Shown here: in pieces, positions 1 through 51,739 of the stretch
Layout of the letters: each line of letters opens with the position of its first letter
Position numbering within the stretch: the stretch's first letter is position 1
Assembly (NCBI GenBank): GCA_947034895.1
Contig: OX344761.1
Span: forward strand, 82,167,839 to 82,231,838
Direction of reading: 5' to 3'
From: Rhytidiadelphus loreus
Taxonomy: Eukaryota > Streptophyta > Bryopsida > Hypnales > Hylocomiaceae
Length of the DNA: 64,000 nucleotides
Notes under the pieces: model-generated
Seen by the model: only the letters and a program-made list of their open reading frames with translations
What the model was told of the DNA's origin: nothing
Database searches by the model: none
Position numbers and translations under genes: made by a program

Positions 1-211
1 TGTCCTCTTATGAAATGAAGTACAGTAAAAAAAGAATTCATATAGAAATATATTACCATATCAAAAGAAAAAAATAGAATATGTACCCAATTTCTTCATA
101 TAGGAAAATAGTCACAATTTCTTTTAAGAACTACATACTACTAGGCCATACTGACATTCAAAATTTGGACTCCTACTAATTTGAAGTTGTGTTTGGGGTT
201 GAAAAAATCAA

Positions 212-281
212 GAGGTCCACCAAACACCAAAAAAACAACCATCGGATCCGACGGATGTATCTTCACTATTTCAGGGACCAC
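212..281. repeat. About 70-bp imperfect palindrome, core TCGGATCCGA (member 1 of 6)
   Basis: The core at 242-251 is a perfect palindrome. Matching arms GGTCC (214-218) and GGACC (275-279) are symmetric about it. It lies in what should be the intron that follows the transposase exon ending at 471. Confidence 0.6.
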
Positions 282-470
282 CACAATTCGAATACTTTAA
301 AAAAAATTATCAACAAATTAACAAAAAAAGTAAGTGGTTTCTTTATATTTTGGCAACAACTGTAAATTATAGAAAATTACATGAAACAATATAGGTTTTG
401 GGTTGTATTCAAGAAATGCATCTCCTCAAATAAATATACTTGCAAACATTGAAATAATGAATTCACTCAC

Positions 471-2634
471 CATGTCCATGAAGCCTCCCCATTGCCGGTA
501 CCGAAAATGCCATAATTCTAGCCAATGGTCTAAGTGATGAAGCGATTCTTCATTTGCAGCTCCAGATGATAGCCACCAAGATCATATTGCAATGTATCGT
601 GTCTCTGCTTGGTCCATATTCTTGGAATCTTTGTACTGTTTACACAGAGAAATATGTTGATGTTGAAGTGCTTCTTTGATATACTTCTGGGTGTGTTTAT
701 GAAGAGAACTACTCCAGTGCAACAAACATGTTCTCTCACGATTAGCCATAACCTCATTGGCAGAGCCATTTCCGTAAACTATACGAACAGCGTTCCAATT
801 GGCCATGGCACTATCTGCCATGAATCCTTTAAAGTTTGGCTGAGGCACTCCATGTTGCTCCATGACAGCATTTAAACTCTTCCAAAACTGTACCTACACC
901 ACGGTATCTTCGGATTGCATATCACACATTGCAATGGTCATCACCTTTTTGTATTCGGCATCGTATACGTGGCAAGCCATTGTGGTCCAATCCTTCACGC
1001 GCTTCACGTGATCAAACATCAACCACGCATTCTGTAGATTCCCTCCTGGTTGCATGCGCTTCACGAGGTCCACTCCACTACCAGGTCCTTCCGTGAGCAT
1101 TTTAAAAATGTAAACCTTCTCCTTGCCTTGACCTGGAAAGACGTTGTCATGTATGAATTCGAACTTTGACTCCTTCTTCATTGTCATGATGTTGTCAATG
1201 ATCCCTCCTCGATTGTTTGAGCGAAATGACGAGATCACATTCCGAATACTTGGAGATGAAAGATATTGGAAGCGGTCCATCACTTCTTCCATTTCCTCCC
1301 CCTTCAACATCTTCTTCTCTCCTTCTCCGTTGTGAAATAGATGATTAGTCAGAAACTCTTTACTAGCAGATAGCACAATTGCTGAGTTTGTGGCCAACGG
1401 TGTTTTGGAAACTTGCTCTTCTATAAGTCCAAAGATTTGCTGTGTGGAATCTTTGTACATCCCCTTCGCAACCGGGTGGTTGGGCTCTCCGAAGTGAATA
1501 GCGGCCCTACTCATTTCGGGATTATCACCAAAACAGTAGTACATCCTACCATTACAAGCGCTAGCTAAGACAAGAAGGTGGTATCTTGCACACCTTGCAA
1601 ACTAGAGTTGAGTCTTTAGGAGGACTATTCCCAACTGCAAAAGGATATGATGTGAATCCGGTCCACTCAGTTTCATTCTTCTTGGATGTTCGACTTAAGT
1701 AATCACAGTAGGGGTTCACACAAGCAAGGTGGCCGGCACAGAGAGACTTACGGAACTTGAGATTGTCGGAGTTGCTAATGTTTGTAGTTACAAGCCTACA
1801 CCACGGGTGTCCATCATACCGTTTGTCCATTCCTTCCAAGCTCCTCGCCGCTGATGAAGATGAAGTAGATCGGCATGGTGGCAGTTCAAAGATGACATCA
1901 CCGTCAAAAACTACCGGAAGAAACGATACAAGATGGTGTTTCATGACAGTTAGATCCATTGTAGACAACTCATTTCTAGATCGACGCATGTTCGCTAGTT
2001 TTCGCAAACAATCCATTATGCTTACTTTGGTAGTTGGATATGCAAGCAACGGAGTACTAGACAATATAGATTGCCCCTGACTACTCAAAGGGCTGTCAGA
2101 TATAGAGTTCAATACAACCTTCTTTCCAATTGTAGTTCCAATAGAACATCCTGGATTTCTAAGAGTCAACTGAGGAGACTCTCCTTCGGATTCACTAGAT
2201 ATTTCTATGATTGGATCTAATTTCTCTATCTTCACAGCATGAAGGAATGAAGACTGAAGAATAACCGGAGAAGATGGAGGACCTGCACTAGGTGAAACAA
2301 GTTTTATTGCAGACGGCATATCTACTGTTGAATTCTCTGACTGCCGACTCCAAATCTCAGAGGAAACATTGAGCATGGGAAGAGGAAGGCCGTATGCTCT
2401 ATAGTTGCCAGGGGAAAGGTACCAGCTATGTCCTCCATCTTCCGCGGATTTCACAACAGACACAAATTCACTCACTTTTCCCGACTCCGACATCCTTTCT
2501 TCTTCAACATAGATAGAAGACTCTACAAATCTAAATCGGACGTACAAAAGATGACTGGAAACTCTAGCCTGACCCCCATCTTCTATTGGAAATAGAAGAG
2601 GTACCTCATGCCCATCTACCCGAATACAAGCCAT
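471..2634 (-). pseudogene. MULE-type transposase-like gene with WRKY/GCM1-like zinc finger, copy 1 (decayed)
   Basis: Read on the minus strand from ATG at 2634 (MACIRVDGHEVPLL). About 270 residues of unknown N-terminal sequence include an acidic Ser-rich SUMO-interaction-like motif (PIIEISSESEGE). A zinc-binding region follows: CVNPYCDY, then CKVCK, ending in a GxPNHPV segment, which resembles WRKY/GCM1-type fingers of MULE transposases. Next comes an RNase-H-like part (FDHVKRVK, GFMADSAMANWNAV, CLLHW) of MULE type. The exon ends at a good donor (GTGAGT, complement of 465-470). The gene is broken by a 4-bp TAGC duplication (gctagcta at 1560-1567) that shifts the frame, a TAG at 894-896 where copy 2 has Gln, and a TGA at 582-584. 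Exon 2, with the SWIM finger seen in copy 2, is not visible below 471 and may lie before the window. Family assignment is by motif only. Confidence 0.75.
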
Positions 2635-3402
2635 TTTGAGAAATCATACACGGAGCACTCAGAGAAGAGGTCTATCAATATTCCTATGCTTGGTATGAGC
2701 GCTCAATTGAACTTCTATACCCTAACACTGACCGTCACCGTCAAATCTACAGAATGACAATGTAGTTGCAGTAGTCCAACCGTTATTTTCATTTGTGTTT
2801 TGAAATGGAGCTTTCAAATCAGTGAAATCACTTTTCCGTCAAAAAAAAGCCGCCACCTCTCTCACTTACAGTACCATTATGTATCACAATATTCACTTAC
2901 CATGTATTATTATCCACGGCCGTCGAGGAATATAAAATTCCTGTAATATGCCGTCACTTCCAGTTAGTAATTTCTATCTCCACTACCCTTTACATTTTGT
3001 AAAGTATTCCTAAGCTTGCCTAGAAATCTGACAATTTTAGCCTTGTCTGCCGCCGCCTTCTAGGATCATTTTACATTCATTCCTTAGAAGAGATTTAAAT
3101 TCAATAAGGCCGCCTCTTGGACCCCATTTCCCATCGTGCGAGGTGTCAGACCTTGTTATAAATATGCGTCACCTGAATGTTTAATGTTCTCGGCGCACCA
3201 AGCCGACTTTCATCTTCCACGTTGCCAGAACCATTACGAACCTCTTCGACCACTGTTGTATAGTACGTCACATTGTAGGGTTCAAGACCATTCCTTCAAA
3301 CACTATAAAAGAAGGCATTTCAACTCATTAGATTCATTTGCTCGTTCAGTTTTAGTATGCACCGCAGTTGAGAGTGATTGTTTCTTTAGAGTCATCTTTC
3401 TT
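2635..3402. promoter_or_regulatory. Divergent intergenic promoter region with TATA box for the ParB-methyltransferase gene
   Basis: This is the only spacer between the minus-strand transposase start (2634) and the plus-strand gene start (3403). A canonical TATA box, TATAAAAG, lies at 3304-3311, about 90 bp before the plus-strand ATG. A second AT-rich candidate (TATAAATA) occurs near 3157-3164. The same head-to-head layout recurs at 24490-25236 in copy 2, so a shared bidirectional control region is plausible. That last point is inference. Confidence 0.45.
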
Positions 3403-6400
3403 ATGCTTGTAGAGGATTTTGTCACACCGGATCCTTGTAAGTTGGTTTCAAAGAGTAAGAGTAGGCGTAGGTCCTTGTATTTCTCAACGTCTAGAGAATT
3501 GAGGAGATCCAGAATGACCCGTGGAAAGAAACTGATGTCCAAGACAAGCCATTCCACCCAGGAGGATCTTTGCAAAGTGTTACGCTTTGATGTTGGAGGT
3601 ACCAACGAGGAGGACAATGTAGGCGTGCAGAACTTGGATGCGACAGAGGAGATGTCCATAGATACAACAGGTGGTCAACATCGAAGAGGACAACCAACCG
3701 ATGCAAATGTAAGTTACAGTTGCTTGGCACCATTTCTTTGTTTTCTTTGTGTTTGCATGATCACCATGATTTCATATGTTGAATGATTGCAAGGATCATA
3801 GACATCTCTTGATGCTCTTCTTGTGCTTGCAAAGTCTTTACAGTTCTTTGACTTCTATCTTCAATGTTTAAACATAGACTGGTACTTGTAATGCCTCTGA
3901 ATCATTTCTAGTTGAATGAAGCTTTATTTGAATGATGCACAAATGAATAGTTATAGACATTGAAGAAATGACAACAGTTCATGTTATAGTTTAGAAGCTC
4001 GGTAGTTGCCAAACAATTCAGAGAGAAGGAATTTCTTAGGTTTTATAGATATAGAGGCAATAGAAACATCAGTATAACACTGATAAAGCTACCCCTTTCT
4101 TCTAGGCTTTCTAGATTCAATCTTAGAGTACGAAGTTCAATGAAAAGGGTAGTTGTAGAAGCTAAAGTAATACCTCCATAAGACACCTGTGTCCAAAATT
4201 CTACACCTCCTCAAGTGTGTACTACCCGTACATGTGTTTTTTCATTGTATCAAACATGTTCAAGTAGTGTACATTTTAGGTGATGGGTTTTTGTAGTGCC
4301 CGTTGCATTATAACTTCATAAATTCCTAACTGATTCAAAAAATCATTAAACATGAAGAACAACTTGTATAGTTGTGTTAGGTTAGAATTCAACTTTCATT
4401 TTGGTTAGAACTGACTTAAAAATATTTAAATAACTCTCACCTCTTACCTTAGAATAATAACTCATACCTTATTTTAATAACTCTTACCTTATCACAGGGA
4501 AGGTAGCAAGCTTTACCTAATGCAACACCAGGCAAAGTGTGTTAAGTTTCCCACATTCTACTGGTCATGAAAGGGTAATATGAGGCATCATGTGGTAAAG
4601 TGCAAATTCAAGAAACATGTAAAACACAAACACGCAAAGTCTAGTATCTTTTCCACATAGTATTACATTTCCAAAAAGACCTTGGTTTTACCATGTGGTT
4701 CTTTGTTGAGGACATTATCCCATAAGCATTCTCTTTGGTGAGACTCCCATCAAGTAGAATACACAAGTTCCTCCACCTCCCAACCTTGAGCCATAATTCA
4801 TCTGTAAGAGATTAAATGTATGAATAGTTTAGGGTGTTAAATAGTATGTTTTGTATTGTACAATATTATTTGGTATAATGTATACTATACAGTATTATGT
4901 ATTACGGAATATACGATAATGTATAGAAGTATTGTTAGTCTCACCTGTTTGTATGTTGTAATTTGTCTCTGCTTTAACCCATTCCCATATCCCATTCCTT
5001 AAGGCAATTCATTATTAGAATACCATGAGATAATTGTCAGAATGCATCACCATGTGGTAATGGCCAAATTTTAACCGCATTAAATTTCCAACATATTCGG
5101 GGAAAAACGTGAAAATACTTTAATAAATCCCATATGGGAACAGAGTATACCTTCCTCGTGTATAACTGAACCCAGTGTCGCCCTCGAACGCACTTCACAT
5201 TCTGTTTCGTAGCCTCACGAATCAAAGTTCCTCCCGCTTCCAGAGCATTTTGTAGGAGTTCCGATTCGAAGTGATACTCGAGCTTTATAGAATCAGTGTC
5301 GAATTCATACATTCCTTTCACTACTAGAAAGGCATGTCCACAAGAACAGAAAATCAACTAATTTGTGTTATTTAGAGTAGTACAATGATCATTTTGATCA
5401 TATCTGTTGAAAAACAACAGAATGGCAAATACTTTCTGTTGTTTTGGATAGTTCAATGACCAAATCAACAAGTTTCTGTTGATTTGAATTTTTTTTGAAA
5501 TCTTTTTGGAATCTTTTTGAAATCTTTTTGAAATCTTTTTGGAATCTTTTGGAATCTTTTGGAATCTTCGGGAATTTTATGAGAATTTTCTAGATTCTTC
5601 ATGGAATCTTTTAGGAATTTAAATATAATGATTAAAAAAAATTTTGAACATGTGAAATTAGTGTTTTTTCAATTCAGCAGACTTCAGAGTCCATTTACTC
5701 ATATTAGAACACATTTTTTCACAAAACTTGTGACTAAGAAAAGTTGTAGATTTAAGCTATCTTTCACCTCCAAAAATCCGTTTGGGATTTAGATCCTCCA
5801 ATCAAAAGTTATAGATAAAAATCAGAGAGGGTAGTTATGAACATTTATTTAACATTGTCAAACATCCTCTCTGATTTCTGTTCATAACTTTTGATAGGAG
5901 GATCAAAATCACGAACAGATTTTTGGAGGTAAGAGATAGCTTAAATATACAACTTTTCTTAGTTACAAGTTTTGTGAAAAAATGTGTTCTAATATGAGTA
6001 AATGGACTCTGAATCCCGCTGAAAATATGGAATTATTTTTAAAAAAAATTTAATCATTCACAAATTGGTATTTTAAAAATTCAGTAGACTTCAGAGTCCA
6101 TTTTCACATAGTAAATCTACTTTTTTTCTTAAACTTAGAACTAAGAAAAGTTGGAAAACAAAATTAAATTTCATCTCCAAAAATCCGTTTGCAATTTCGA
6201 TTTTCCAATAAGAAGTTATGGGCAAAATTCAGAGAGGGCCATTTTCTTTTCACTTTTTAACACCCTCTCTGATTTTTGTCCATAACTTCTTATTAAAAAA
6301 TCTAAATCAAAAACGGATTTTTGGAGATGAAAGATAACTTTATTTTTCAACTTTTCTTAGTTCTAAGATTTTAAGAAAAAGTCAATTTACTATGTGAAAA

Positions 6401-9400
6401 TTAGCCCTAAAGTCTGCTGACTTCACAAAGCACATAAAAAATTACTTAGAAAGAATTGAAATGCATTTTTTTTACTATCTAAGACATGCAAATTCAAAGG
6501 TGGCTTAGTGGATGAAACCTTGGAATTTAATTCCAAGGTAGGGGGTTCGAATCCCCCCGAAGGCAAGGTGCCCGTGGCTGCCTAGTTGGCAGTGCCACGA
6601 GGCATTAATTATTTTTTTAATTTAAAATTTAAAAAATTTAAAAAAAAAATTGAATTATTTAATTTTCTTATTTGTCCGAAACAACAAAAAAACAAACAGA
6701 TTTCAGTTAGATTTTGTCCGAAACAACAATCCGTAAATGACTGAACTAACAACAGTTTTCGGTTGAATTTTAGTTCTTTTGGTCATATCCTTTCTAGTAG
6801 TGTTTAAACAATTAATTCTTCCGCTGCGATTGCGGATCTCTGCTCTTTCTTGTTTTCGAATCTGAGCGTAGATTCTTCTCGCCCTGTTGTACGTGTCCGA
6901 CTGGAGGGGGAAACATTCAAACAGACGTTTGAATTTTCCAAAATGATGGTCTGGCCGCAGACAGAACGCGAGGCGGGAATCTCGAAGAGGCAGGGTCTAG
7001 AGTGAATCCTGGAGCTTCGTAAATTAGAAATCGGCCGTCTTACCGTTTTGAACTTCAAAAAAATCTCGGTGGCGCGCTGTGCCGAAAAATCTCGGTGGCG
7101 CTCTGTACATGCCGAAGATTGGATGGCTCCCGTGATTTCTATGATTTCCCAAAATCCGCTAGCTAGCTAATTTTAGAATTAAGTACATGACATGGAGTCC
7201 AATGGCTCACCGAACCGGCAGCAAGGACTTGATTCATTCCCGAAATCATTCTGTACTACAATTGCGTGACCGTGAGTTCGGAACATGTTTGAATGTTCTC
7301 GACACTCTAGTTGCAAGTTCTGAACAGAGAAGATTTTCCCGATACTATTGTCTTTGTGCAGATGGACAGCATGGTCCGGACGACTCGGAGCCGTGCGCGC
7401 GAGGGAGGAAGTTCACAGCCAGAAAGTAGCGACAGCAGAGGTGGCTGTCGTGGGAAGAAGGTATTTTATTTTTGGTTCTTCAAAGTTCTATTTCAACGAG
7501 GCCTTGTAATTTGTGAAGTTGTTCCATTCCCAGAATATTTTGAGATTGAAAATCACAGCGTGCTTGGTACTCCAGACTTCTTGCCAAGGGATCTTAGTAG
7601 CTTCCGTAGCTAGTCGAATGGACCGACTGATATCAGAAACAGATTCCAGTGTCCTTGCCGAAATGAGCAGTCCTTTGTAGAGGTTGAGGTTTCCAGGTTT
7701 TGGTTTCGCATTGGTTTCGTCCAACCAAATGCTAAATGGACCGACTGATTTCAGGTTTTGGTTTCGCACTGGTTTTGCATTTGGACTGATTTCAGGTTTC
7801 GCATTTGGTTTCGCGACAGTTGAGCTATCCGGGTCTTGGTTTCCGTTTTGCATCGATTTTCAAAGCGGGGGGGTGCCGCTGAGGCCTCCGATGCCACCGT
7901 CGGATCCGACTGTCCAGCAGCAGCAGTCCGCGGGACCCCTCGTTTCTTGACCAGCGTGCTCCTCATCCTCGTTTCTTGACCAGCATGCTCCCGATCCTCG
8001 TTTCTTGATCAGCGTGCTTCCGATCCTCGTTTCATGACCAGCGTGCTCCCGATCCTCGTTTCTTGACCAGCGTGCTCCGGTCCTCGTTTCTTGACCACCG
8101 TGCTCTTGATCCTCGTTTCTTGACCAGCGTGCTCCTGATCCTCCGTTTCGCATCGATTTTCAAAGCGGGGGGTGCCGCTGAGGCCTCCGGTGCCACTGTC
8201 AGATCCGACTGTCCAACAACAGCAATCCGCGGGACCCCTCGTTTCTTGACCAGCGTGCTCCCGACCAATTTCCGTAGCTTTCGGCCGGCTGGTCTTGTCG
8301 ATGCCCCCACATCAAGTCTTTTCTGTTGTTAGTTCTGGGTTCATTCCTTTGATAGATCCCTTGCTCATGCCCTTGACCTACATTTTGAATATGTCGAGTT
8401 TTTTTATCAACATACGTGATTTCTGTTGCAAGACCTTCTGTTTTTTTGAATAACTTTGGAAAATTGGGGGTATTGCTAGTAGTTTCCGGGTGACCATCGG
8501 ATCCGACGATCAATAAAAGTTTATCTGGTTGACCCTTAAGAAATCATATCTTCTTTCTCCTTTTAATTTTAGTTGCAGGCATTCATTTAAATTTTTGTCC
8601 CCTCCATTTCATTGACCCCTACAGTTCAATAGCAGTATTTTGGTTTAATACCCTTTTTTTTATGTTGGATGCTTAGAAAACAAATGATTAATAAATTGGA
8701 AGCAATTGACAAGTGAACTACTCACATAGTTGTGTCTTTTTTAATGAAGAAGGATCATCATTAACAAATAATTTCTCATACAATTAGCTAATTAGGTGGA
8801 GACCTCTTAGTCTCATATTGTGCATGTTAAATTCTAAAGGGGGGCCAGTGAATAGAGACTTCTCCATCGTCGGATCCGACAATCACTTATATTCAATCTT
8901 CTTATCCCCCCACAATTGAGTTAAATTTAGAGGAAATAATTTTATCTTTTTTGCTTCTAGTGAAAATTTTGAACGAGTATTGCTTTGTAACTCAAGTTGT
9001 CATCAGTTTATTATTTCAAAGTTATATTTAGATTTATTCTAAAGTTCCCAACATATTAATGCAATAAAATCAGTTTAGTTCTTCAAAGTTCAGCTTAAAT
9101 TTTATTGTAAACTCCATGCATTGTGGAAGCTTCATTATAAACATATTTTTTTGGAAATTTTGTGTCTCTTTGCTCTTGTACAATTAGGATCGTCTAACTG
9201 AAATTGAGTTTATGGAATGTGATGTTTTGACAATAGGGAGGACGAAGAGGCAGTAGTTCAGTACCCGATCTTCAACTTGAAAGTTTGCCCACTTCTCATG
9301 GAGAAGGTCCTTCTGAGCCATTCACACCGGTAAATACACCCATGGACGTCTCCAGTGATGCAAAAGAGTTTGAAGCTGAGAAGGAGGACGTGGTAAGTTT

Positions 9401-12400
9401 TGATGACGTCATGGATGCTGCAGACCGAGCAGTGGATGCCTTTGAGACCTCGGTATTGAGTCGTGTTAGTGACACTGGGGCGCGTAGACGTCGTGAGCGT
9501 TTGGCTAGAATCATGATGGTGGCTCAGGATAGGAATAGGCCGATTAGGTTTATGTCTCCTGAGACTGAGTACAGTTCAGATAGTGAAATTTCCATCACTA
9601 TAGATGGTCCAGCAATGCAGGACATCTCTCAAGGTGATTGTAGCACAATTCAAGGTAGACAGGAGGTTGTCATCATTCATCTTAGTTCAGACTCGGAGGT
9701 GGATGTTGACATCGACTGATCCATCATTGTGGAAATTTTTGTGCGGAAAGTGATGTGGAACTTTGGTTGTCTAATACACATAGTGTTTGACTTGTTTTCA
9801 TTCCCATAATGGTTAAATCTTACTTTGTTGTTACATTTGGAGCCCTTGAGTAATTGATGAAAATTATAGATGCGTGCATTTCATTTTTTCATTAGATTCT
9901 GCTATTTCAAGTCTGTGACTATTAATTTGTTCTTTCTTGTATTGGCAGATGCATCTCCTTCCATTTTATCACAAGATGAGACCATCCTTGAGACCCAAGT
10001 CAACGATGACACCCCTCAACCGGACATTGGTTGTGAAGATGAAGGGGAGTTCGTGGAAGACGAGGTGGAGATAGATGTCTTGGAAGAAGAAGATAAAGAC
10101 TTGGATGAGGACGAATTACGGTCTTATCACAAGGTAGATGCGGTGAGGACCATTGCATCTTTGAGGATGAAGCCAGAGCATCTCTTTCGAATGCGGATCC
10201 CACTTTGTCGAATGGTGGCCATGCCTATGGTAAGACCGACGCTTGCTTGTGACTTGAAATTGCTTGAGATGGAGTTTAACAAAAGATACCGAGATGGAGC
10301 TGCAGTTTTTTATGTGACAACAACCAACGAAGCTGGAGAGGGTTCAACATTCACTGAGGAGGAGATGGAGGGTTGGGATCCGTTGTGGAAGAAGAGGAAT
10401 GACATCTTTAATGCCGAGGTAGAGGCCGTGCCTGAGTTGAGGTTTTTGAAAAACCTCAAGTTCTTTGTTTGTGATGGCAACCACAGGCTTCTTTCTTGGA
10501 TGAGTTATATAACCCGGAAACACTCAAAGGATTGGGACTGGCATTCCTCCATGGACTCCATTCTATTGGATACCAAAGGGAAAACAGAGTTGGTCATGCA
10601 CGTCATGCATGACATAAACAAGTGAGTAATTCATGCAATCTTTGTAGTACGGCATTTCATTTGATTTTTATTTGGGAACATTTTAGGTGCAGTTGTAAGC
10701 ATTTTAATAAATTGTTTCCTTGAAATATAAGTCCACCAAGGGTTCACATGTGAAAACGAATCTGGTCCATACTTTATATCGCATTCAAAAGTATGGACTT
10801 CTTCCCATCGAGCGATTCAACGAGATGTTGAGGCCGTCGGAACTCAAACGTTGTGGGGCACCTAAATCAAAGAGGACATGGTATTCTATGCCCCTTGAGG
10901 TCTTTACAACTTTCCTTTTTCGGGTGAGAAATTTCTTGCATCTTATTGTTTTTATTTATTTTGGGGTCTATTTGAATTCAATTATTTCTTTACATTTTGA
11001 CTTAAATTTTTTTTTTTTAATTTAAATTTTTTTAATTTTTATTTATTCTTTTTATTGGATTTGTGCAGCAAGAGATATCCCAAGCAATGGATGTTGCAGT
11101 TCGAAAATACAATGAGGTCACCCCTCAACAGGATAAGACTTCTGAGGGACTTGCACACGCAATGAGAGCTGGAGCAAAGGAGAAGACAGGGAAATTAAAT
11201 GTGAAGATGACAAAGTTGGTTACGGTGGCCAATCCGGCTCTTAAGCCCGATTTTTTGGCAGAGGTATGTTTCATCTATGAATTGTCATCAATGGCAGTAA
11301 TCTTTGAGGGACTATAAATTATAATCAATTTTGTGGATATCTGAGCAGGTGGAGAAACATTGGAACGCAAATGAGGTCCCTGAAATGACTCTAGAGAAAC
11401 TTCAAATGGTGGCCACTTGCAATACCACACCTTTCCACAAGACGAAGTTTCTAAAGTGGTGGAACTCCTCGATGCCATCATGCGATGCTAGACGTCTTCC
11501 ACCGAGACCTGTATCAGAGCTCCTATTGGGCCCTTTCTTGAATAGATGCGTGTGGTATGCTAGGGTATGTGTTCATTCCAAAGTTATTTGATTTTCAGAA
11601 CTTATGAGTTTTAAAAAAAAATGTGTATCCTATTAATTCCAGTACCACAATGTATATTTTTTGGAATGAATAAGTTCTCGGATTTTGAAGATTGAAGACG
11701 CAGCCGTTGAATACTTTGAGGATGTCGTCAAGCAAGACAACATCAACATCAACATGAGCGCTCAATTGCAACCCGAGACTTTGTCGGATTATTTAGAGGG
11801 GTGGAGGAGGAAGATCTGGGATCAAGGCTTTTTGGCACACCTTAGAGGAACAAACTACTTCAAGAAGAATGATAACTTCCTGACTTACGAAGGAGGGAAA
11901 CAAGCAGTGCGAAGGGTTCTATTCCGGTATGTCTCAACTACAATCAAAAAATGAGATCCATAATGCATAATAACTTTGCAGTTTCATATGTCTTTGTTTT
12001 TTTGTGAAGCATATTTAATAATTTCATTAAACTAGAATCATAATCCTGTTACAAAAATGGGGAGTCCCTAACGTACCTTTTCGAGCACTGTCGGATCCGA
12101 CGGTACTCGGAATGGTTCGTAAGGGACCCCCTTATTTTATCCCGTCTAAGTCCTAAAATGATTCTTTTTTGGGCCACTTCAAAGTTCTATGATGCTATAT
12201 TTCAACTTGAAGTTGTAATGGTAGTTGGGCCTTGGCTTGGTATGGTGTTATTAGTCTTTGATGAACATTGTGTTGTCTTATTTCTCAGATACTTCAAACA
12301 CGAGCTAGAGGCAAAAGGAGCAATTCAAAAGAAAGATTTGCCACCATTTCTCTCAAATTTTCTGGATCGTAGTTCCGCAGATTGTATGTACATGCCAAAT

Positions 12401-14490
12401 CAACTCCGAACATTCACCACGGCTCACCTTAGTGGCGGTGGTTGGTACATTGATTGCCCCATTTCCTACACACATCCATCAGAGGTACAAATGCGACTGT
12501 CTTTAGGGGGACTTGGGACTATTGACATGGATGTGGACGAGTTTGCAGGGCTCAGTGATAAACAAAGAGAGAGGGCCATTGAAAGGAGGGATAGGAATGA
12601 TAGGAAGAAAGCAGCTCGGCTCCAAGTGGCTCTAGACAACAAAGAAAAAAAGGAGGCAGAGCGTGTGGCCAAATTGGCAGAGAAGGAGAAGGAGAAGGAA
12701 AAGGAGAAGGAGGAGAAGGCCAAAGCAAAAGGGAAGAAAAAGAACGAGGATGGAGACTTCGTTCCGGCATCATCAACTGTGGATCAAAACTCGCAGATGG
12801 AAGGGGATGTTCACATTGGCATGAAGAGGAAAACTGTGTTGCCAGATTTCAGTGAAGACGTTGTGACACAAGGAATACAAGTGATCGAAATTGGTGACGA
12901 TGACATTGTCACCTCGGAGGAGTTGGTGCTCAACGTCTCCATTGAAGAGGTTGTCGACAATGAGAAAAATGAGGGTTCCAATTGCTACACCGAAGTTATG
13001 ACTTTTCTGAAGAAGGTGAAATACCCGTTTTTTAATTCAGAGTTTGATCTTATTATTACTTAGTTGTACCTTCCTCTTGGGAATGACTTATCAACTGCCA
13101 TTTTGTATTTGTAGATGGCGGAAGGGAAGGCCAGGGTGTATGATGGAGTCCTGAATCGGTGGCCGGGATTCGACCTGATGCTCTTTGACTGCCAAGAGAA
13201 TCTACCAGTGCCGGGGGTGTCGACTCCAGCTTCTCACGTGCCTTACTGGAACTCCGACCCAGAGTACAACATGATCAATGAAGCATTTTTCTTTGCAGAA
13301 AAGCATTTGCAGGACCATGGTTGCATTGTGCTGTTCCATTCGTGGAGCGTGGACGCCAAAAGCACCATTGCAGGATTATGTGAAGGGTACCCCATCATGG
13401 TGATGAAGAAAGAATGGATGGGTATGAATCGGGTGCATTTGACTTCAGCCATAGACAAAACGAGCACGGTATGGATTTTTGATTCGTTAACAATGTATTT
13501 TGTACTTCTCATATTATAATTTTATTCGATTTTGTTATGAATTTATTTTTCTGATTCTTGCAAACTTTGAAGTTTGGCATCTCACTCTTGGTGAAAGACC
13601 TTGGGGAAAGAGGAAAATCCAAATTCTGTTTTAAACGCTCAGCAACAATGTTGAAGGCCAAAGTTGATCTCAAGCATGATGACTTGCTGATGAACTACAC
13701 CACCGAGGATTCCATGTTGATGAAAGACATGGATCGAATGCCATGGCGAGGGCCTCGAGAGAAGGACGCCCGCTTATTACGGCACATCATTGAAGGAACC
13801 ACCGACGAAGGAGACGTGGTTCTCGATTGCACAGCATCCACGGGTGAGTTTTGTTTTGAATATGTGTATGTTCCATCTATATGCCGTACACAAAATTATT
13901 GACGTAGTGATTTATTCTATTTTTTCCAGGAGCCTCTATAACGGCATGTCGGGCAACGGGGCGGCACATTGTGGCATTGGAGGCAGATAAGTCGATTTTT
14001 GCAGGCATCCTTCAGCTCATGAAGAAGACAATCCCTCCAATTGCGACACCTGTAGCTACCAATATGGCACCGGTTGTAGTTTCACAGGATCCGGACGCAA
14101 TGACTATAAAAGTGCGGAAGTTCGTTCGGCGAGATAGACCTAGTAAGTAAGTTTCTTTGTTTTTGAATTATTGCTTTGCATGGTACTGGTGTGGTTAGCT
14201 GAATCTAACATTTAATCATTTATGTTTGCAGCAGCGAAGGATTGATGGCGGATGCTGTGAAGAAGAGACGAAGACTTATCTTGAGTCCAGAGAAGTCATT
14301 TGATCTTCCAGTCTATGCAGAGCAGCTGGCATCGGCGTTTGCTGAGTTTGGTACTTCAAAGTCCAAAAGCCGTAAACCTTCATACGCTCTAAATGTCTTG
14401 CAGTTCATAGACGGATCAGCATCCGAGGGTAGGGAGACTTCTGATTCTTCTAGTGACAAGGATTCTACTACCGAGTCTACAGCAACATAG
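3403..14490 (+). CDS. ParB/sulfiredoxin-like domain fused to a DNA N6/N4-methyltransferase-like domain, 13 exons
   Basis: Exons placed by splice sites and frame: 3403-3708, 7362-7460, 9237-9633 (or 9654), 9949-10621, 10732-10923, 11069-11263, 11349-11564, 11691-11926, 12289-13015, 13115-13468, 13573-13843, 13930-14146, 14232-14490; about 1,380 codons. Exon 1 is basic (KSKSRRRSLYFS). Exon 3 ends near a SUMO-interaction-like motif (EVVIIHLSSDSE). Exons 4-6 hold a ParB-like domain: RIPLCRMV, then FFVCDGNHRL around residue 440, then MHVMHDIN. A Lys/Glu-rich helix (EKEKEKEKEE) and a second SIM-like motif (QVIEIGDDD) follow. Exons 10-12 form a methyltransferase fold in beta order: a motif-IV-position LFDCQENLP (about residue 1035), then motif I VVLDCTASTGAS and HIVALEAD (about 1214). 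All junctions are in phase except exon 4/5, which is off by one base, so the copy may be slightly damaged. The catalytic DPPY/SPPW signature is not intact. Exon linkage 1-3 to 4 is inferred from phase and order. Confidence 0.65.
5151..5312 (-). other. Short unidentified exon-like open frame in intron 1
   Basis: A 54-codon frame starts at ATG 5312 (MYEFDTDSIKLEYHF) and ends at a possible donor (AAG|GTATAC). The CACTA element is inserted four bases upstream of this ATG. I do not recognise the protein and see no second exon. It could be a captured gene fragment or chance. Confidence 0.25.
5673..6024. repeat. Long hairpin 1 inside the CACTA element
   Basis: About 170-bp arms meet near 5848. For example, ATCAGAGAGGGTAGTTATGA pairs with the complement around 5868-5890, and the outer ends both carry the ACTCTGAA/TTCAGAGT pair. 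The RNA would form a near-continuous duplex. Confidence 0.7.
6080..6424. repeat. Long hairpin 2 inside the CACTA element, related to hairpin 1
   Basis: A second inverted repeat with arms of about 160 bp meets near 6250. It shares motifs with hairpin 1, such as CCAAAAATCCGTTTG and the AGAGAGG centre, so the two hairpins look like a diverged tandem duplication. Confidence 0.65.
6494..6604 (+). mobile_element. tRNA-related SINE head or tRNA pseudogene
   Basis: Pol III box A (TGGCTTAGTGG, 6501-6511) and a perfect box B (GGTTCGAATCC, 6544-6554) lie at tRNA spacing. The T-arm (GGGGG/CCCCC) and anticodon arm fold well, with TTA in the anticodon position, but the acceptor stem does not pair. The tail runs into an AT-rich tract after 6605. 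It is nested in the CACTA element. Confidence 0.55.
7867..7942. repeat. About 75-bp imperfect palindrome, core GTCGGATCCGAC (member 2 of 6)
   Basis: The core lies at 7899-7910. Arms GGGGTGCCGC and its near complement GCGGGACCCC sit symmetrically around it. Intron 2. Confidence 0.6.
8167..8240. repeat. About 74-bp imperfect palindrome, core GTCAGATCCGAC (member 3 of 6)
   Basis: The core lies at 8198-8209, with one base changed from the perfect palindrome. The G-run and C-run arms are symmetric. This is part of the second duplicated block. Confidence 0.55.
8466..8537. repeat. About 72-bp imperfect palindrome, core TCGGATCCGA (member 4 of 6)
   Basis: The core lies at 8497-8506, with GGG near 8468 mirrored by CCC near 8533. 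GGGTGACC on the left is echoed by GGTTGACCC on the right. Intron 2. Confidence 0.5.
8838..8911. repeat. About 74-bp palindrome, core GTCGGATCCGAC (member 5 of 6)
   Basis: The core lies at 8869-8880. A run of six G at 8839-8844 is mirrored by six C at 8906-8911. The arms between are only weakly complementary. Intron 2. Confidence 0.55.
12059..12132. repeat. 74-bp imperfect palindrome, core GTCGGATCCGAC (member 6 of 6, best preserved)
   Basis: The core lies at 12090-12101. The left arm GGGGAGTCCCTAACG matches the complement of CGTAAGGGACCCCC on the right, and most of the 31-bp arms pair. It sits in the intron between exons 8 and 9. Confidence 0.7.
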
Positions 14491-15600
14491 ATTCATGAGA
14501 TCGACGAGTCTTATGAGTCAAAACATTATGTATTGATTTTCATGATGATTGGATTTGTGTGTTTTATGGCTACATATTGTATGATTGAATTAACTTGACT
14601 CCCCTGCATTCCAGGTATTGTCTAGTACTTGAATATGATCCACGGGAACTTTAATGCTAGAAAACTAAAAGGAAGAATCAAATAAATGTACACCAATTCA
14701 AATGCTCGAACATAAAAAATTAAGTTGAAGTAGAAAAATATATTCTCACTAAGTGAAGTGTGTACCCCCCTTAAATGTAGTGTAAGCTAGAACTCGAGTC
14801 CCAACCTGCAAAGTAGAATATCCAGAAGTGAAGGGACTAAACAAAAGATCACCCTAAACCCAAAATGAAATCTTTTTTTGAAACATAGTGTTTGACAATT
14901 AGAAAGAATTTTATGTAACCAAAGTGATGCTTCTAAAATATTAGTACCCTTAACAAATTATCCCCTTATACAAACCCTATAACCTCTACCTCAGTAATTA
15001 GGGTGTCCTAAAAAAATTAACATAAGCTGTGAGAACGACAAATATATATTCATGCTATTCCTTATACAGGTGTTTGCAAAAAAAATGGGGTGGAAAGAAG
15101 TTACTTTATCAATAGTCTTTTAGAGCAAGATGGGGTGTGAGATGAAAAGATCATTTCAAAACAATTACCGTACCATACGGAAACATCGAATGTAAAAAAG
15201 CTAAATCCTTACTTATACCCCTAAATAAATTCAATACAAAAAAGGAGTAAGAGAAAGCAAATAATGTTTACACCATCCAAAAAGCCTTTATGAACGGAAT
15301 ACAAAATTTATTCACACCATCATGTGAGCGTTTAAGATAATAAAAGAGGGTGTCAAAAGAAAACTAAATCAATACAAACCAATCCATGTATTTATAAGAA
15401 ATATTAGACTATCCCTTAAAAGGAATACTCCACTAGAAGTGTCTTATTGAGAAGAATACAATATGAGCAAGTGACGCTTGGGCAATTCCTAAATAGGCAA
15501 GGAGTCCTTAAAGCAAATGCAAATGTTGAAGCGTGTTTTTTTTCTTCAATTCATAAGTCACCTAAAACTGGAAAGAATAGTGAGCTAACCATTCATTGAA
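14491..15600. other. AT-rich downstream region, no gene seen
   Basis: This follows the TAG stop of the methyltransferase gene. I see no long frame, RNA gene or clear repeat. Confidence 0.4.
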
Positions 15601-17449
15601 ATGCAAATTCACTACATGCACGGTCATAGGTACATCCACGGTCATGGGATCCTCACTAATTTTTCCAAATTTTTTTTTCATGCTCACAAGCTTACAAGCT
15701 CACAAGCTCACGCTTTCAAGCTCGCACGCTAGCAACCCTGATTAGGGAACTAGAGAGAACCAAGGTAGATTTGATTGAAAAGGCAAAAGATCTTGACAAC
15801 ACTCTAGCCTTGAAAGAGAAAGTTGAAAAAGTACATATTTAATATGTTCCCTACTATTTAAAATTCTATAATATATATAATTAAATATGAAAAAATAATT
15901 ATATGTTTGGATAATTTTGTTTGGTCAATGGTAAGGTAAATTCTCTGAATTGTGGACCTTCTCTAGTAGAAATCATATTTTTGCCTAAAATGTACATAAT
16001 GTGAGCATAAGATTCTAGGGTTGGATTTAGGTACACATATAATTAGTGTTTGGGATTCTCTTAAAATTTTATTCACATAGTCATTAAAAAATAAGAACTT
16101 TCTTCAAAATTCTTTTTGAAGATTTTTTGATGCATATACTTTACAATTGTCATGCTCCAAAAAAAATTCTATTCAAGCCTTGGGACAAACTAGAAGCATG
16201 AAACATAAGTATTGCAATCAATAGCTACGCTTGTTGTAACATTTAAACTATCATATCACTAGGTTGATGCCCTTCAATAAATTCATACTTGTCTTTTAGT
16301 ATAGCTATTGAGTATTGAGAATCTAATATTTTGGTTTGTATTGTGCAGGAACTAGCAGAATACAAAAGAACAATGCAAATTGAGGTGAAAGCATCCTACT
16401 TTGTATTGCCTTGTGGACATTGGATTCTTGATTCACATTAGATTAAGAAAGGGATTAGAGTTCTTATTGAGAGTAAGTATCTTCTTGCCTTGTGAAAATG
16501 TGGTAAGGACACTTCTCATTGAATTTTGAAGTCAATGTCTATTTGGCTAGCATTTCACATCTTTCTCAATTCGCTCCAACCTTTTGTTGGCTTCAAACCT
16601 TTCATAAGATTGGTCCTTTGACTACTTAGAACTGATTATGATTCTTTGGATTTGGGTAACCATAGTGCCCATTCTCCCAATTTTTATATAAAGATACATC
16701 AAAAGTATATTAGTTGAAAAATGTAGCAAGAGAATATAATGTAAGCAAGGTTGCATATGAGTGGTCAACTTCTTTGATAATCATTGTGCTTTATGCCATT
16801 AATAAGGCGTGGGTGGGTTCATGGAATTTTTTGTAGTTTAAGCAAATGGTGGATTTATAGAGACTTATTAATGTGGAATCGATTGTAGCTAGGAAAGGAG
16901 AAGATGAGAAGGCAACGAGAATCAACAGAGTTGAAAGAAAACTTTCAAAATGAAATTCTAATGACAACTCAACAACACGTGGATAGAGAGATAGAATTGC
17001 AAGATTTTTGTCAAAGAGAAAAGGATGCATGCTGAAAAACCATTGAGGTACATAAGATACTCTATAGAACTACATTCTTCACATCATTTTGCATTTTTTT
17101 AAACTATAAATTTGGTCTTGATTTCCTTTATTTTATCAAGTGTCAAAAAGTAATAAACTCATCCAAATTTTGAATTTGAGCTAGCAAGGTATTTTTTATT
17201 ACAAAGTACAATACATCTATCATTATACAAAATTGAAGTTCTCAACCTTTTGTAAAATATGGTAGGCATACCAAAATTAACACTAATCTTAAAACCAACA
17301 CTACATAATACGTTCATACATTTATGGCCTCAAATATATGATAGGTGTATAAAGTGTTGGTTTAGAGTATTTATACCTCAATGTATACAGGGAACTAAGA
17401 ATCTTAGGACCAATTTCTTCTAATGCATAGATTTGTTTGATTCTTTAAC

Positions 17450-18367
17450 CCCTAAAGGACCATGGCCATTCTTCTATCAAAATCTACTCAAAACTGCCAT
17501 TTTTGCTGCATTCATCCAAAAACACAAAAAAAAATATTTTTTTTAGAATCTAACCATAGGATCTTGTGCTTTACTAGTCTAGTATCATGTGGTAAAAATT
17601 TAATGGAGTTTGACCGTACAAATTGGAAGATACTAGCATTCAAAGTTGAAAAAAGAAAGTTTTTTTGAACACTAGCCTTCAGTTTCAGATGACTTTGAAT
17701 GCCATTTGTGGAAAAAATTTACACCATGGACCTTGAATTAAAAAAATTTTGTGTTGAAGAATTGAGTTGAGGGTCTAGATTTTCTTTTTTAAATACGATT
17801 GATTTTCATTCTTTAAAAAATTGTTCAATAGAGGTAGGTCTAAGATTGAAAGAAAAACTAAATCGTTAATAGCTCTAAAATGGGATTGAAATGCAATAAT
17901 CTCAACGGTGAGATTGTTTTAAATAGAAAATTTAACCTTGTCAAACAATTTTTGTTGAAAAATTGTGAAAATTGCATTCAGAATTGAATCCTATAAGTTA
18001 TTTTTTCAAGAAGATGTTCAAATTGCCCAAAAAACAAGATTGTTCATAACTTTCACATTACTAATCCAAATGGAATGAATCAAAGCTTCACATGTAGAAA
18101 AAAATATGATCTTTAATAAGAAAAAAATTAAAAAATTAATTTCAAATTTTTGTAGATTTATTTTTCTGCCCGGTGACGTGAAAATTATGTTTAAGATGCC
18201 ATAACTTTTGCTCATGGGCACCAATTGAAATAAAATTTATATTCCCATGAAGCTCATTAGTTTTCCTGTCTTTTGAGAAAGTTTCAAAAAAATTCACTAA
18301 AAATTGAGATCATATGAACTTGCCCGAAATCCATTTTGTCCCCGAGGGGACAATGGTCCTTTAGGGG
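17450..18367. mobile_element. piggyBac-like non-autonomous element (TTAA target)
   Basis: Inverted ends CCCCTAAAGGACCA/TGGTCCTTTAGGGG are flanked on both sides by TTAA (17446-17449, 18368-18371). TTAA targets and CCC-initial ends are features of piggyBac elements. It is 918 bp with no coding capacity. Related copies or fragments occur at about 30395-31278, 35400-36290, 38010-38610, 47590-47830 and 58870-60010. Confidence 0.65.
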
Positions 18368-18477
18368 TTAATGAATTCTCAAAACGGGATTCCATTTCAA
18401 AAATGGAAGTTGGCACGGGCATTGCAATAGAAAGTTATGGAGTATAAATACCTACTCAAGCACATGACTATTGACTA

Positions 18478-18932
18478 CTACACTAAAGATGATATTTAGT
18501 GTTGAGTGACATTTAGTGTTTTTACCCCCCTACTAGCTACAACACTAAATCTGAACTTGTCCACAATTAGTGTTAGACTTGAATGTGCCGGCTGCAAACT
18601 TCAGAGCCTTGTAACTTTTGCATTCCTTCTTCAAATAAGGAAAATGAGATGTTTTTCGGCATTTACAATTTTTGTAGATGCCGAAAAACATCTCATTTTC
18701 CTTATTTGAAGAATTTTTGCAAAAGTTACAAGGCTCTGAAGTTTGCAGCCGGCTAGCCCTAATCGGTCCGATTCTGTCGGTGAACAGTGATATTCCGTCC
18801 GATATGACAACTCTAGTTCACATTTAGTGTTTGAATTGACATTTAATGTTACTTACTTTCATAGGGTAATTGGCTTTTAGTGTATGCCTTCGTATTTAGT
18901 GTACAAGACACTAAATATCATCTTTAGTGTAG
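18478..18932. mobile_element. 455-bp MITE with about 26-bp inverted ends
   Basis: The ends CTACACTAAAGATGATATTT and the complement at 18913-18932 match. A TA dinucleotide flanks both sides, which suggests a Tc1/mariner-like or related MITE. Short ATTTAGTGT motifs are scattered inside. A long hairpin fills its centre. Confidence 0.65.
18587..18753. repeat. Near-perfect hairpin of about 75-bp arms
   Basis: The left arm starts GCCGGCTGCAAACTTCAGAG and the right arm ends with its complement at 18753. The loop is about 15 bases around 18670. The arms differ by only a few bases, so the transcript would make a long duplex resembling a young miRNA or siRNA precursor. Confidence 0.75.
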
Positions 18933-19785
18933 TAATTAGAACTTAGTGTCTTTCAAGATTATTAGATATCATTGCCTATCTATATATTTATGTCTTGATT
19001 ATTAGTGCTCTACAAAGTTTTTTGTACTAATTTCATTCATTTGTAGTCCAATTCATATTTCATTATTGATCGTAGGACATGATGATGCTTCACACAGAGG
19101 AAGTCAAGAAATTGAAGGTATTGAGGTGCTATGACCAATGGTGATTCTTGAAGAAAATCTCTCTATCAATGTATATGGTACATTCAAGTAAACTTTTTTG
19201 AGAGGACAAAAATGAATGTTTAATTTGAATGTCATTACTATAAATGATGCTAAATTGTATTCATTAAGTCAAATTCACTTTCATTGATGCTATTTTTGGT
19301 AGACAAATAGAATTTTCATTTAAGTAGGACAAAGGGGATGATGATCCCATGTTTCTAAAAAGAAGATTTGAGTCTAAAGAAAGAAACATATGTACTCATA
19401 TAGCAATAAAAGATAATCCTATTAATATACTAGACTTACTAGATTTACTTGGAGATAGCATGTATTTCTCATCAATTAAAATGCTCGTTATTTGGTTTAA
19501 AGTATTGGTCTACATATGAACAAGCCTTTAAATACTTTGAACAAAAACTCTTCTAGTCAAATTTTTTTTGCCTTTGTTAGACAACGACGCTAGTTTGTGA
19601 GCTTAAAAGCGTGAGCTTTGGAGCTATGAGCGTATATTTTGTGAGCCCAAGGATGTTTTTTGAAATTGTTGCAAATTTTAGGCTCCTATAAAAAAATTTC
19701 CCATCTCCTAAAAAATTATGCGGCAATTCATTGATCTACCAAAAAAATTTGGGGCCCTAAAACCATGGACCTATTACCACGGATT

Positions 19786-20848: not shown

Positions 20849-23800
20849 CTACTCACGAATTCTAATCATTCCTGCCTTTTCAAGAAGTTTCATCACTTCA
20901 TCCATACTGAGGCTTGGGGCATGGATGAACTTATCGATCTTACAGTCAACCTTGCATAGGTATCTAAAAATATAATATAGATGTTTGCAATTAACGTATT
21001 TGCCTCGCTTACCAATGGATGCAGACACCATACCACTAAAATAAAGACAAGTGCACGATGGGAAATTAGAAAGGGTGATCCGATACACCTTGTGCTCAGG
21101 TTCGATGCCTGATTGGAGAGTGATGATAGCTCCAAGGCCTGGGTATGGCAAGATGTTTACTCCAAGAATGTTTCCGGTAACATTTCGGGCACTCTCCCAT
21201 TGGTTACGGTGCTCATCTATAGGAGCCTTTTCATTTCTGCGAATGCTTTTGCCATTGCGAATACACGGAGGCTTGTCTGCATGAGATGGTCTTGCGTAGT
21301 TCCATTCAACAACCTCAAATAGTTTTGAGGATGTGAAGAGTCATCGAGGAGATAAGGATTGTCTTTCTTGGAGGCGAAACCCGGCTTCTTCAAACAAAAT
21401 GATCTCATCAGAAGTAAGGGCAGTACCGATCATCACTGGCCAGAACTTAGGGATTTCCGGTCGAGACAAAATATGAGACCTCCTCGGATCCATCACACAG
21501 CGCTTGATATCGTCTGGACAAAACCAGAACTCATCTATCTCCACCCTTGTACCTTTGTACTCGTGCTTCTGCCCTTTATACAGCGGAGCAGCAGTAGCTT
21601 TAGACCCTCGGACAATGTTCATCTTGCACTTCAACTCCGTCTTAGACTGATTGGCATGGCACTTCCTCTTGGATTTTACAGAGATGCGGGCTATGTGCCA
21701 AAGCGAAGTGTCACAGTCTGTCTCGAGCACGTGCTTGACATGAGGCATCCGGGTGGTATCGTCTTGCACATCACAGACAGAAACATCCGTAGATTTTCTA
21801 TGCACTCGCGGGTGTGAGTAATTAATCTTGTCAGGACGATGCGAATCTCCTTCAGATCCAATAGGTACATCCAGCGCCCGCTTGGTTGATCCGAACACTT
21901 CTTCCCCTTCTAAGTGAGGAACTCGTGTACAAACTGCCTCCGCCCCTGGCATACTACATAAAGCATCGGTAATTTGTTTGCCGTCCATAGATGCAACGGC
22001 CCTCTTCAACTTTAAGTCTGCTCGAGATGGTCCATGCCCAAATCGCCCACCATTGAGATACACCTGATAGTTGGTCATTTGCATAAAAGCACGAACCCAA
22101 TCGTCACATGTTGCGACATACAGATCTATCCCACGCTTGCCAGACATTTGTAGCCACTTGTTGTGAACAGTCTCGGATAGGTTGCAAGACGGAATGTCCG
22201 CCAATTCTTTGATTGATAAATCCTACAAGAATGAAATTTGGTAAATTAGACTTCAAGAATCATTAAACAGATGAAAAGAAGAAAAGCATTTTCAAGGACA
22301 ATAAACTCAGAGGAAGAAAAAACAAAGACTCACTATTTCCATGAAGCCACCCCACTGGCGATATCTGAAGTGCCAAAATGCTAGCCAAAGCTCAAGCTCC
22401 TTCAGAGATTCAGCAGATGCAGCACTAGATGAATACCACCATGCCTTGATTTGAAGGTACATGTTCTCCGCTTCTTCCAGGGTCTTCACGTCTTTGTAGT
22501 CCCTACAAAGCTTCACATGTTGACATTGCAATTCACGCTTAATTAGTCGCTCTGTGTGTTGCTTCATCGACGTAGCCCAGTGAAAGAGGCATGTGCGCTC
22601 CTTGTCAATCATCTTCACAGAAGCATCGCCTGATCCATAAACAATGCGGACAGCATTCCAGTTGGCTTGGGCACTGTCCGCCATGAAGCCTTTAAAATTC
22701 AGATTCAACAAGCCATTCTTCTCCATTACCCTATTCAGACACCTCCACATAATGACTTGCCCTTCAGTATCTTCCGACTGCATGTTACAGACTGCAATTG
22801 TCATCACTTTGCAGAAGATAGGGTCATATACGTGACAGGCGATGGTGGTCCACCCTTTCACCCTTTTCACATGGTCAAACATCAACCACGAATTTGACAA
22901 ATCTCCCCCTGGTTGCATCCTCTTCACGAGATCAACGCTGCTACCAGGTCCATCCACAAGCATTTTAAAAAGGTACACTTTATCTCGACCTTGACCAGGA
23001 AACACACTATCATGAATAAACTCAATCTTAGCTTGCTTTTTCATTGCAAGTATGCGGTCAATTTCCCCTCCTCCGACTCTAGAACTACAAAAAGAGGCAA
23101 TAATATTTCTAACGTTTGGAGAACTGAGGACTTGAAATTTATCCATAACTGCTTCAAGAGCCTTTCCATGAAGCATTTCCTTTGGACCTTCGCCCGAGTG
23201 CACTAAGAATGTGTCTAAAAACTCCTTGCTAGCAGCTAGAGCAATGGACGATGTTTTAGCAGTAGGGGTCTTGCATACTTCTTTTGCAATGAGCTGTGAA
23301 ATGGTATCCACAGAATCTCGACATAGACCATCTGCCACTGGGTGGTTGTGAGATCCTAGATGGATGCAGGCTCGTGTCATTTGGTTGGGACCTACAACGT
23401 AGTAAATTCTACCGTCGTAGAAATTGATACAAGTAGGTGAAACCTTGCACACCTTGCAGACAACAGTTGAGTCCTTAGGTGAACTCGATCCTACATGGAA
23501 TGGAGTGTTTGTGTTACCTAACCACTCTGTCTCGTTTCTATGAGAGCATCTTTTCAGGTAATCGCAAGAAGGGTTAAGGCATGCCAAATGACCAACACAA
23601 GATGCTTTTCAAAACTTTAGCCCAAAATCATTGTGGATATTTGAGGTCATAGTACGGCACCATAAATGACCGTCGTAACGTTTATCCATGCCCCCATTGT
23701 CTTAGAAGAACTAGAAGAAGTCGAGGAACGACATGGTGGGAGCTCAAAGACAATGTCACCATCAAAACTAGTCGGAAGAAATTGGACTTTCTGGTAATCG

Positions 23801-24489
23801 ACTGACGCAAAATCGAGATTAGCAAGTTCGTTTCTACATCCTCTCATAAGCGCCAATTTCTGAAGGCACTGCATCACACTAGGACATTGACTATCTGTCG
23901 GATATAGAGGTGGGCGTGATAAAAACGAACTTCCTGCACTACTATCACGCGCACTGCCAGATTGGGTTGTCTCCACCATCATTGTAGCATCGAGCGAACA
24001 AGAATTAGCTGATTGACGACCAAAATTTGTAGGCCCTCCCTCCGAATCGCTTGATAACTCCACGATTGGACTCAAAAACTCTCGTAAAGAGGGATAGACA
24101 TTGACAGGACTGAATGGATCATCCGAGGCAGAAGGGCATACAAGCTCACATTTAACGGCTCTAAAAATAGGAGCTTGAGCTGTAGATGCATCAGATAAGG
24201 GGGTAAGGATCTCAGTAGAAGCATCCATAACGATTGAGGGTAGACCAAAAGACCGATGACGACCCGATTGTAAATTCCACTCATATCCATGGTCATTGCT
24301 AATCCTGGACATTAGAATCGACTGAAGAAGTATTCCGGCCTCTGAATATATCTCGTCCTCGACATAGATGGAGGACTCCAAGAAACCATACCGAACATGA
24401 AGGAGGTCACTAGACACAATAGCTATACCAATATCATTCAGGCGAAGAAGAAGGGGAACCTCATGACCATCAGCTCTTACGGACGCCAT
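20849..24489 (-). pseudogene. MULE-type transposase-like gene with WRKY/GCM1-like and SWIM zinc fingers, copy 2 (decayed)
   Basis: The start at 24489 matches copy 1 (MASVRADGHEVPLL). The order is: unknown N-terminal region with SIM-like PIVELSSDSEGG; zinc-binding region CLNPSCDY, CKVCK and LGSHNHPV; RNase-H-like core (FDHVKRVKGWTTIACHVYD, GFMADSAQANWNAV, CLFHW); an intron from about 22333 to 22223 (GTGAGT...TTGTAG); then a long exon ending in a SWIM finger (CTC, then CKH, before LYYIF). WRKY/GCM1, MULE and SWIM in this order is the known MULE transposase layout. Lesions are a one-base deletion near 23695, TGA at 23609-23611 and TGA at about 21341. Copy 1 lacks the first two, so the two copies decayed independently. 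Confidence 0.8.
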
Positions 24490-29804: not shown

Positions 29805-29839
29805 CAGGGTTGTCCCCGTCACGTCGTGTCCGTCCGTCA

Positions 29840-51700: not shown

Positions 51701-51739
51701 CGTAAAAAGCCAACGTCACGTCCGGATAGACAACCCTGG

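Follow-up and report, generated by a model that had tools for sequence, protein, structure and literature searches.

Proteins that join a ParB-like part to a DNA methyltransferase are known from two kinds of mobile DNA. PMC12477816 describes a ParB-like/DNA methyltransferase accessory protein of 1104 aa in the Ectocarpus transposon Sola1-1_Ec32, and refers to further such proteins in green and red algae. In phages, fusions of ParB with N6_N4 methyltransferases are frequent, according to PMC12704722. In the titles and abstract openings that we surveyed, neither plants nor Mutator-like elements were reported to carry such a gene. A preliminary description of the locus studied here had called such fusions familiar from bacteria and phage and not from plants; we likewise found no earlier plant report, but the architecture is already known from algal transposons (PMC12477816).

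Our locus lies in a 64-kb stretch of DNA (the window; C1:82167839-82231838 of a 407-Mb assembly). We call the genome plant-type because of a TTTAGGG array at 43206-43240 and because the preliminary description spoke of a plant gene. According to PMC12477816, the Ectocarpus protein shares with ours a length of about 1,100 aa, the labels ParB-like and N4/N6-type methyltransferase, and a position as cargo of a giant DNA transposon on the strand opposite to the transposase. The comparison is one of architecture, not of sequence, and it has clear limits: here the carrier is a Mutator-like element with a 10-bp target-site duplication in a plant-type genome, the ParB half is a candidate, and the DPPY motif is replaced in every copy read. 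With the phage ParB-CTPase and N6_N4 methyltransferase fusions of PMC12704722, our gene has two domain labels in common. It differs from them in that its sequence shows no detectable match to phage ParB, in the distance of some 600 residues between its two parts, and in its introns.

Two further comparisons are with single components. CcrM (6pbd) and DpnA (5hfj, 5hek) share the motif X/I/II block with our methyltransferase-like domain, which in contrast to them has no DPPY and carries DCTASTG as its motif I. Terminal inverted repeats, a 10-bp target-site duplication and a weak SWIM-like transposase C-terminus are likenesses to Mutator-like transposons (MULEs), from which the present element departs in being 18.6 kb long with extra genes and in having scanned transposase pieces that Pfam does not recognise.

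A spliced gene with ten exons

Positions 9949-14490 (+) contain a single spliced reading frame of 10 exons and 9 introns, with a product of about 1,110 aa. The gene, its two regions of interest and a small neighbouring reading frame are placed as follows.

9949-10621, 10731-10923, 11069-11263, 11349-11564, 11691-11926: + strand, reported gene, exons 1-5 of 10
12289-13015, 13115-13468, 13573-13843, 13930-14146, 14232-14490: + strand, reported gene continued, exons 6-10
10110-10619: + strand, ParB-like candidate region with CDGNHR (by motif; exon conserved)
13115-14146: + strand, beta-class methyltransferase-like domain (by PF01555 profile, PHROG matches and alignments)
7362-7460, 9237-9719: + strand, small two-exon ORF of 193 aa, with its stop at 9717-9719

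The exon chain is real. Within 9237-14490 (+), the longest stop-free stretches are 339 and 251 codons and exceed chance, since the maximum in 300 Markov simulations was 247. At least 10 in-phase introns had been proposed earlier; the spliced frame is borne out, but the introns number nine, in ten exons. An initial 12-exon model (1285 aa) joined the small upstream ORF to the gene, and was dropped in favour of 10 exons after its relatives had been read. The Pfam and protein-database searches used this longer model. The small ORF is probably a separate gene upstream of the reported one, because it ends in its own stop and because the next exon opens with an ATG of its own in the relatives.

The gene is cargo of a giant transposon

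The reported gene is cargo of a large, many-copy transposon and not a settled host gene. The element extends beyond the left edge of the window, so that coordinates below 1 denote positions outside it.

-2860 to 15740 (window part 1-15740): giant transposon with terminal inverted repeats, delimited by copy similarity limits, inverted repeats and target-site duplication
15680-15740: right terminal inverted repeat; its partner is CAACGACGCTAGCATGCGAGCTTGGAGCG at -2860, its own end the inverted CAGGGTTGCTAGCGTGCGAGCTTGAAAGCG
15741-15750: right target-site duplication ATTAGGGAAC, with a perfect, identical 10 bp at -2870 to -2861
1-2643, the 3' part continuing to about -1481: - strand, broken Mutator-like transposase, by match to the copy at 20.8-24.6 kb
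3457-3708: + strand, partial small exon 'X', ending in a donor-like site
5318-6803: nested 1.49-kb insertion with CACTACTAGAAA ends (CACTA-like) and TTT flanks

Starting 2860 bases to the left of the window, the element is 18,601 bp long with the nested insertion included. Six copies from elsewhere in the genome were fetched with their flanks (a, b, c, d, e and g), the sequences of c and d falling short of the left end and that of d also of the right. Similarity to the window ends on the left at -2861 (a), -2831 (b), -2863 (e) and -2861 (g), and on the right at 15741 (b), 15748 (c) and 15739 (e); it stops earlier on the right in a (15259) and g (15626). 10-bp target-site duplications flank the element in all three copies whose two ends were recovered (window, b and e), the pairs in b and e being identical at 9 of 10 positions. 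Copies a, b and c do not have the nested insertion. Between the same element ends, transposase (-) and reported gene (+) lie on opposite strands. This position, within the inverted repeats and 10-bp duplication of an 18.6-kb many-copy repeat, suits the early suggestion that the gene may serve its own element.

Mutator-like transposons have terminal inverted repeats and target-site duplications of about 8-11 bp. Both are present here, the latter at 10 bp. No Pfam match to a MULE transposase profile was obtained from the six transposase pieces scanned, which did not include 23650-24651 or the part left of the window. The second transposase copy in the window has a weak SWIM match (E 0.041, 13.9 bits against a cut-off of 19.6). 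Our designation of the element as putatively Mutator-like thus draws on duplication length, inverted repeats, this sub-threshold match and, in part, a gene layout that we take to be that of MULEs. The transposase pieces of the first element are 36-66% identical to the second copy; their reading frame shifts near 1570-1600 and is broken by an in-frame stop codon at 894-896. Each of the two transposases in the window has a frameshift and a stop. Within exon X, the stretch 3457-3606 matches an exon at 25.2 kb, with 33% identity over 52 aa of that exon as query (E 0.004, in a search within the window).

That second transposase belongs to a second, diverged element of the same kind.

19582-54874: second element; its left terminus at 19582 is related to that of the first
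20852-24651: - strand, transposase, related to that of the first element
25237-25533: X-like exon, by sequence match to X
53586-54255, 54367-54556, 54680-54874: ParB-like exons, by homology to the reported gene

The order of transposase, X and ParB-like gene is that of the first element. The second element is broken up by other repeats, and its right end was not found within the 64-kb window. Over the N-terminal region, the protein encoded at 53586-54874 is 54% identical to that of the reported gene, and the two genes share two introns and a third donor in equal places and phases. They differ at 111, 83 and 180 first, second and third codon positions in 299 codons, a distribution that indicates constraint on the protein. 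Because these intron positions match in a copy with only 54% identity, the element lineage has long been in a eukaryote. The preliminary description had said so of the gene itself, a statement that applies to the lineage but not to the window copy, which is damaged.

Copy number, decay and selection

A 421-base piece of the gene gave 343 first-look candidates across the 407-Mb genome, of which 40 were scored; both counts are lower bounds. The scored matches comprise the window locus at 100% and 39 others at 84-98%, distributed over contigs C1-C5. The family therefore has many copies, and it falls into at least three subfamilies.

The window copy lacks four bases that hold the in-frame ATG, which stands at the exon start in 7/7 other copies (sequence compared in a, b and c). 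Its intron at 10622-10730 (+) has a canonical donor and a non-AG acceptor, where 7/7 other copies have AG. With its start codon missing and a splice acceptor that is non-canonical, this copy is probably dead and no longer functional. Copies a, b, e and g each yielded all 12 exons of the initial 12-exon model, copy c 11 and copy d seven; a further copy, f, was read for exons 2-7 only. Lesions occur in seven of the eight copies read over at least six exons: besides the window copy, these are a, b, c, d, e and g, which have stops, frame changes or lost exons. The eighth, f, has one odd acceptor. In the group at 84-87% identity, the ParB-like exon is open in 10 of 12 copies, and the methyltransferase exons are also open in three of the seven read (L060, L062 and L065). 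No fully intact copy was found among those read, these last three having been read for the ParB-like and methyltransferase exons only.

Substitution ratios (NG86) for the ParB-like exon were calculated after stop-containing or frame-changed copies had been dropped or not entered (a, L022, L025, L027, L052 and L055). Between subfamilies, dN/dS is 0.059 (16 pairs), 0.087 (24) and 0.098 (24). The within-subfamily values are 0.148, 0.138 and 0.368, and the highest of these means weak constraint in that subfamily. The methyltransferase exons, with stop codons and exons of unequal length skipped, give 0.139-0.225 in nine chosen pairs of the 28 possible. Purifying selection thus acts across the subfamilies sampled, and the ancestors of these copies kept the protein working.

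Selection on the protein would also be expected of a domesticated host gene with a role on host chromatin. That reading has to accommodate a gene enclosed by terminal inverted repeats and a target-site duplication, present in many copies, and bearing lesions in the window copy and in others read, and we regard it as highly improbable. For the window copy itself, the element ends and copy number led us to reject it. Recent transfer from a bacterium was likewise set aside, on the element ends, the copy number and the introns.

A methyltransferase-like domain with an unusual motif IV

The domain encoded by 13115-14146 matches PF01555 with E 2.3e-6 and 28.2 bits (Pfam cut-off 26.7); against the whole 1285-aa model the match is under that cut-off (E 8.2e-5, 23.1 bits). 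It is confined to the block of motifs X, I and II. Methyltransferase families in PHROG match down to 4.4e-9, and structure profiles give weak matches to CcrM (6pbd, E 0.0062) and across the CcrM/DpnA range (0.0062-0.0095). By these similarities, we assign the C-terminal domain as a bacterial-type relative of the beta-class (PF01555) methyltransferases. The X/I/II block reads PREKDARLL...VVLDCTASTGAS...HIVALEAD; the preliminary description had recognised a beta-order methyltransferase by VVLDCTASTGAS and HIVALEAD, both of which do fall inside a real PF01555 match.

In N6_N4_Mtase enzymes, the catalytic motif is [DNS]PP[YFW] and motif I is FxGxG. Here motif I is DCTASTG, not FxGxG, with the X-I-II order retained. 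A pattern scan for the DPPY-type motif [DNS]PP[YFWH] found none anywhere in the model protein. The motif IV position reads FDLMLFDCQEN, and the DCQE that follows the predicted beta-4 occurs in 13/13 copies read (the window, a, b, c, e and g, then 7/7 further copies; d and f are without that exon in the fetched DNA). Since it is kept in all 13 copies and the exons are under purifying selection, DCQE appears to be a conserved oddity and not one copy's decay. Motif IV of the domain is also unlike that of the six phage relatives aligned (MAFFT), which have DPPY (four), DLPY (one) and DIPY (one).

The same alignment bears on whether the protein marks the DNA of its own element as an active N4/N6 methyltransferase, with other residues serving as motif IV. 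MAFFT sets HVPYW of our domain under the phage motif IV, at similar spacing to the next strand; the variation among the phage enzymes makes some drift normal, and the domain is under selection. However, HVPYW is without an acidic or polar first residue and is kept in 12/13 copies, against 13/13 for DCQEN after predicted beta-4, and the canonical pattern is missing from the model protein. We consider an active enzyme of this kind quite unlikely. Given DCQE instead of DPPY, ordinary N4/N6 methylation seems less likely than a changed reaction or a non-catalytic, AdoMet-binding role; classical methylation by this protein would be possible, and is not favoured. The gene had earlier been proposed to mark the DNA of its own element. 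Its tie to the element stands, but as no copy read has the DPPY motif, it is doubtful that the protein marks DNA.

The ParB-like region

At the N-terminal end, a CDGNHR-type ParB/sulfiredoxin motif had been reported. CDGNHR is present, but no ParB domain (ParBc, PF02195) was matched by any profile in Pfam, PHROG or NCBIfam, or in a PDB profile search. We compared the region with ParB-like domains from ten phage loci. In hhalign, the GNHR stretch pairs with the GHQR box of the ten phage domains at chance level, with 121 of 200 shuffles (two sequences) and 85 of 150 (18 sequences) reaching the real score. A 13-column matrix built from the ten phage ParB sites gives the GNHR site -0.1 bits and prefers another position of the protein, whereas the phage sites themselves score 16-28 bits when left out one at a time. 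AlphaFold2 models of the region from two sequences have mean pLDDT of 38.9 and 38.2, too low for a fold search. Searching phages with the ParB-like exon (tblastn) returned 11 weak records, none named ParB, and nine phage loci with methyltransferase genes have no evident ParB part, as judged by annotated gene lengths only. Across 21 copies, the position of the box II arginine (GxxR) is R in 14, K in four and M in one, with two unread; of the 19 readable copies, 14 thus have GNHR. 'ParB-like' is accordingly a label given by motif and precedent, not a result.

These comparisons would suit a transposon protein whose methyltransferase-like domain is dead and serves as a structural or AdoMet-binding module only, with an unrelated N-terminal fold and 'ParB' as a chance motif. 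Profile tests at chance, the low matrix score of the motif and the missing DPPY all speak for such a protein, while its architecture and size, which equal those of the algal ParB-methyltransferase cargo, and the retention of GNHR in most readable copies speak against it. On balance we think it unlikely.

Proposed function

We favour, with some though not firm confidence, the view that a giant Mutator-like DNA transposon carries this as an accessory gene, with a nuclear role on the element's own DNA. The protein would act in the nucleus on the DNA or chromatin of the element, aiding its persistence. Binding to DNA or chromatin may fall to its N-terminal part (ParB-like at best) and charged middle, and binding to AdoMet to the methyltransferase-like domain. 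The job might be to shield the element from host silencing, or to aid transposition; we propose this by analogy with what has been suggested for the algal ParB-methyltransferase cargo proteins. Against this explanation, the link to those proteins is one of architecture only. No sequence relatives beyond this genome were found in a database of 5.8 billion proteins (E up to 1), in viral contigs or in prokaryote genomes. The negative ParB comparisons, the lesions in most copies read, the weak constraint in one subfamily and the lack of a Pfam MULE match in the scanned pieces also count against it.

More tentatively, we speculate that a lineage of giant Mutator-like transposons in plants retains, under purifying selection, a bacterial-type AdoMet enzyme of its own, with DCQE as a new motif IV, a proposal that is more probably wrong than right. 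Such an enzyme could perform a new base-modification chemistry, or be an AdoMet-sensing DNA clamp, in either case to escape host silencing. The conserved Cys-Gln after beta-4 resembles C5 methyltransferases. With many copies and an unusual shared active-site motif, an element-specific base modification would be directly testable with long-read data. If it is true that transposons of a plant-type genome encode a DNA-modification-type protein of their own, this adds a player to the contest over transposon silencing, and one that could be misread as a host gene or as bacterial contamination.

Other features of the window

Several further loci were observed. Two arrays of a 97-bp GC-rich unit (26575-29808 and 51739-53471) reach a similarity of 85-89% where they align over the greatest length; many units contain the strong donor consensus CTCAG|GTAAG (18 and 11 exact), with an acceptor-like TCTAG site after it. 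The genes at 38938-41325 (-), 55634-58126 (+) and 60167-61672 (-) are three diverged members of one family, 28-43% identical in their N-terminal domain, and two have a RING finger; they are possibly cargo of another mobile element.

A single-exon ORF at 44740-46608 (+) has a partial protein-kinase match (PF00069, E 2.2e-7, 31.0 bits against a cut-off of 31.7). At 47959-50742 (-), a hAT transposase extends over two ORFs (DUF659, 4.1e-41; hAT dimerisation, 5.8e-9) and has a long C-terminal extension. Copies of a repeat of roughly 0.9 kb, 66-76% alike, lie at 17440-18376, 30403-31278, 35459-36288 and 58829-59960, the first with 24-bp inverted ends. A MITE-like repeat of 459 bp (18476-18934) has perfect 27-bp inverted ends, and a short interstitial array of the plant-type telomere repeat TTTAGGG occupies 43206-43240.
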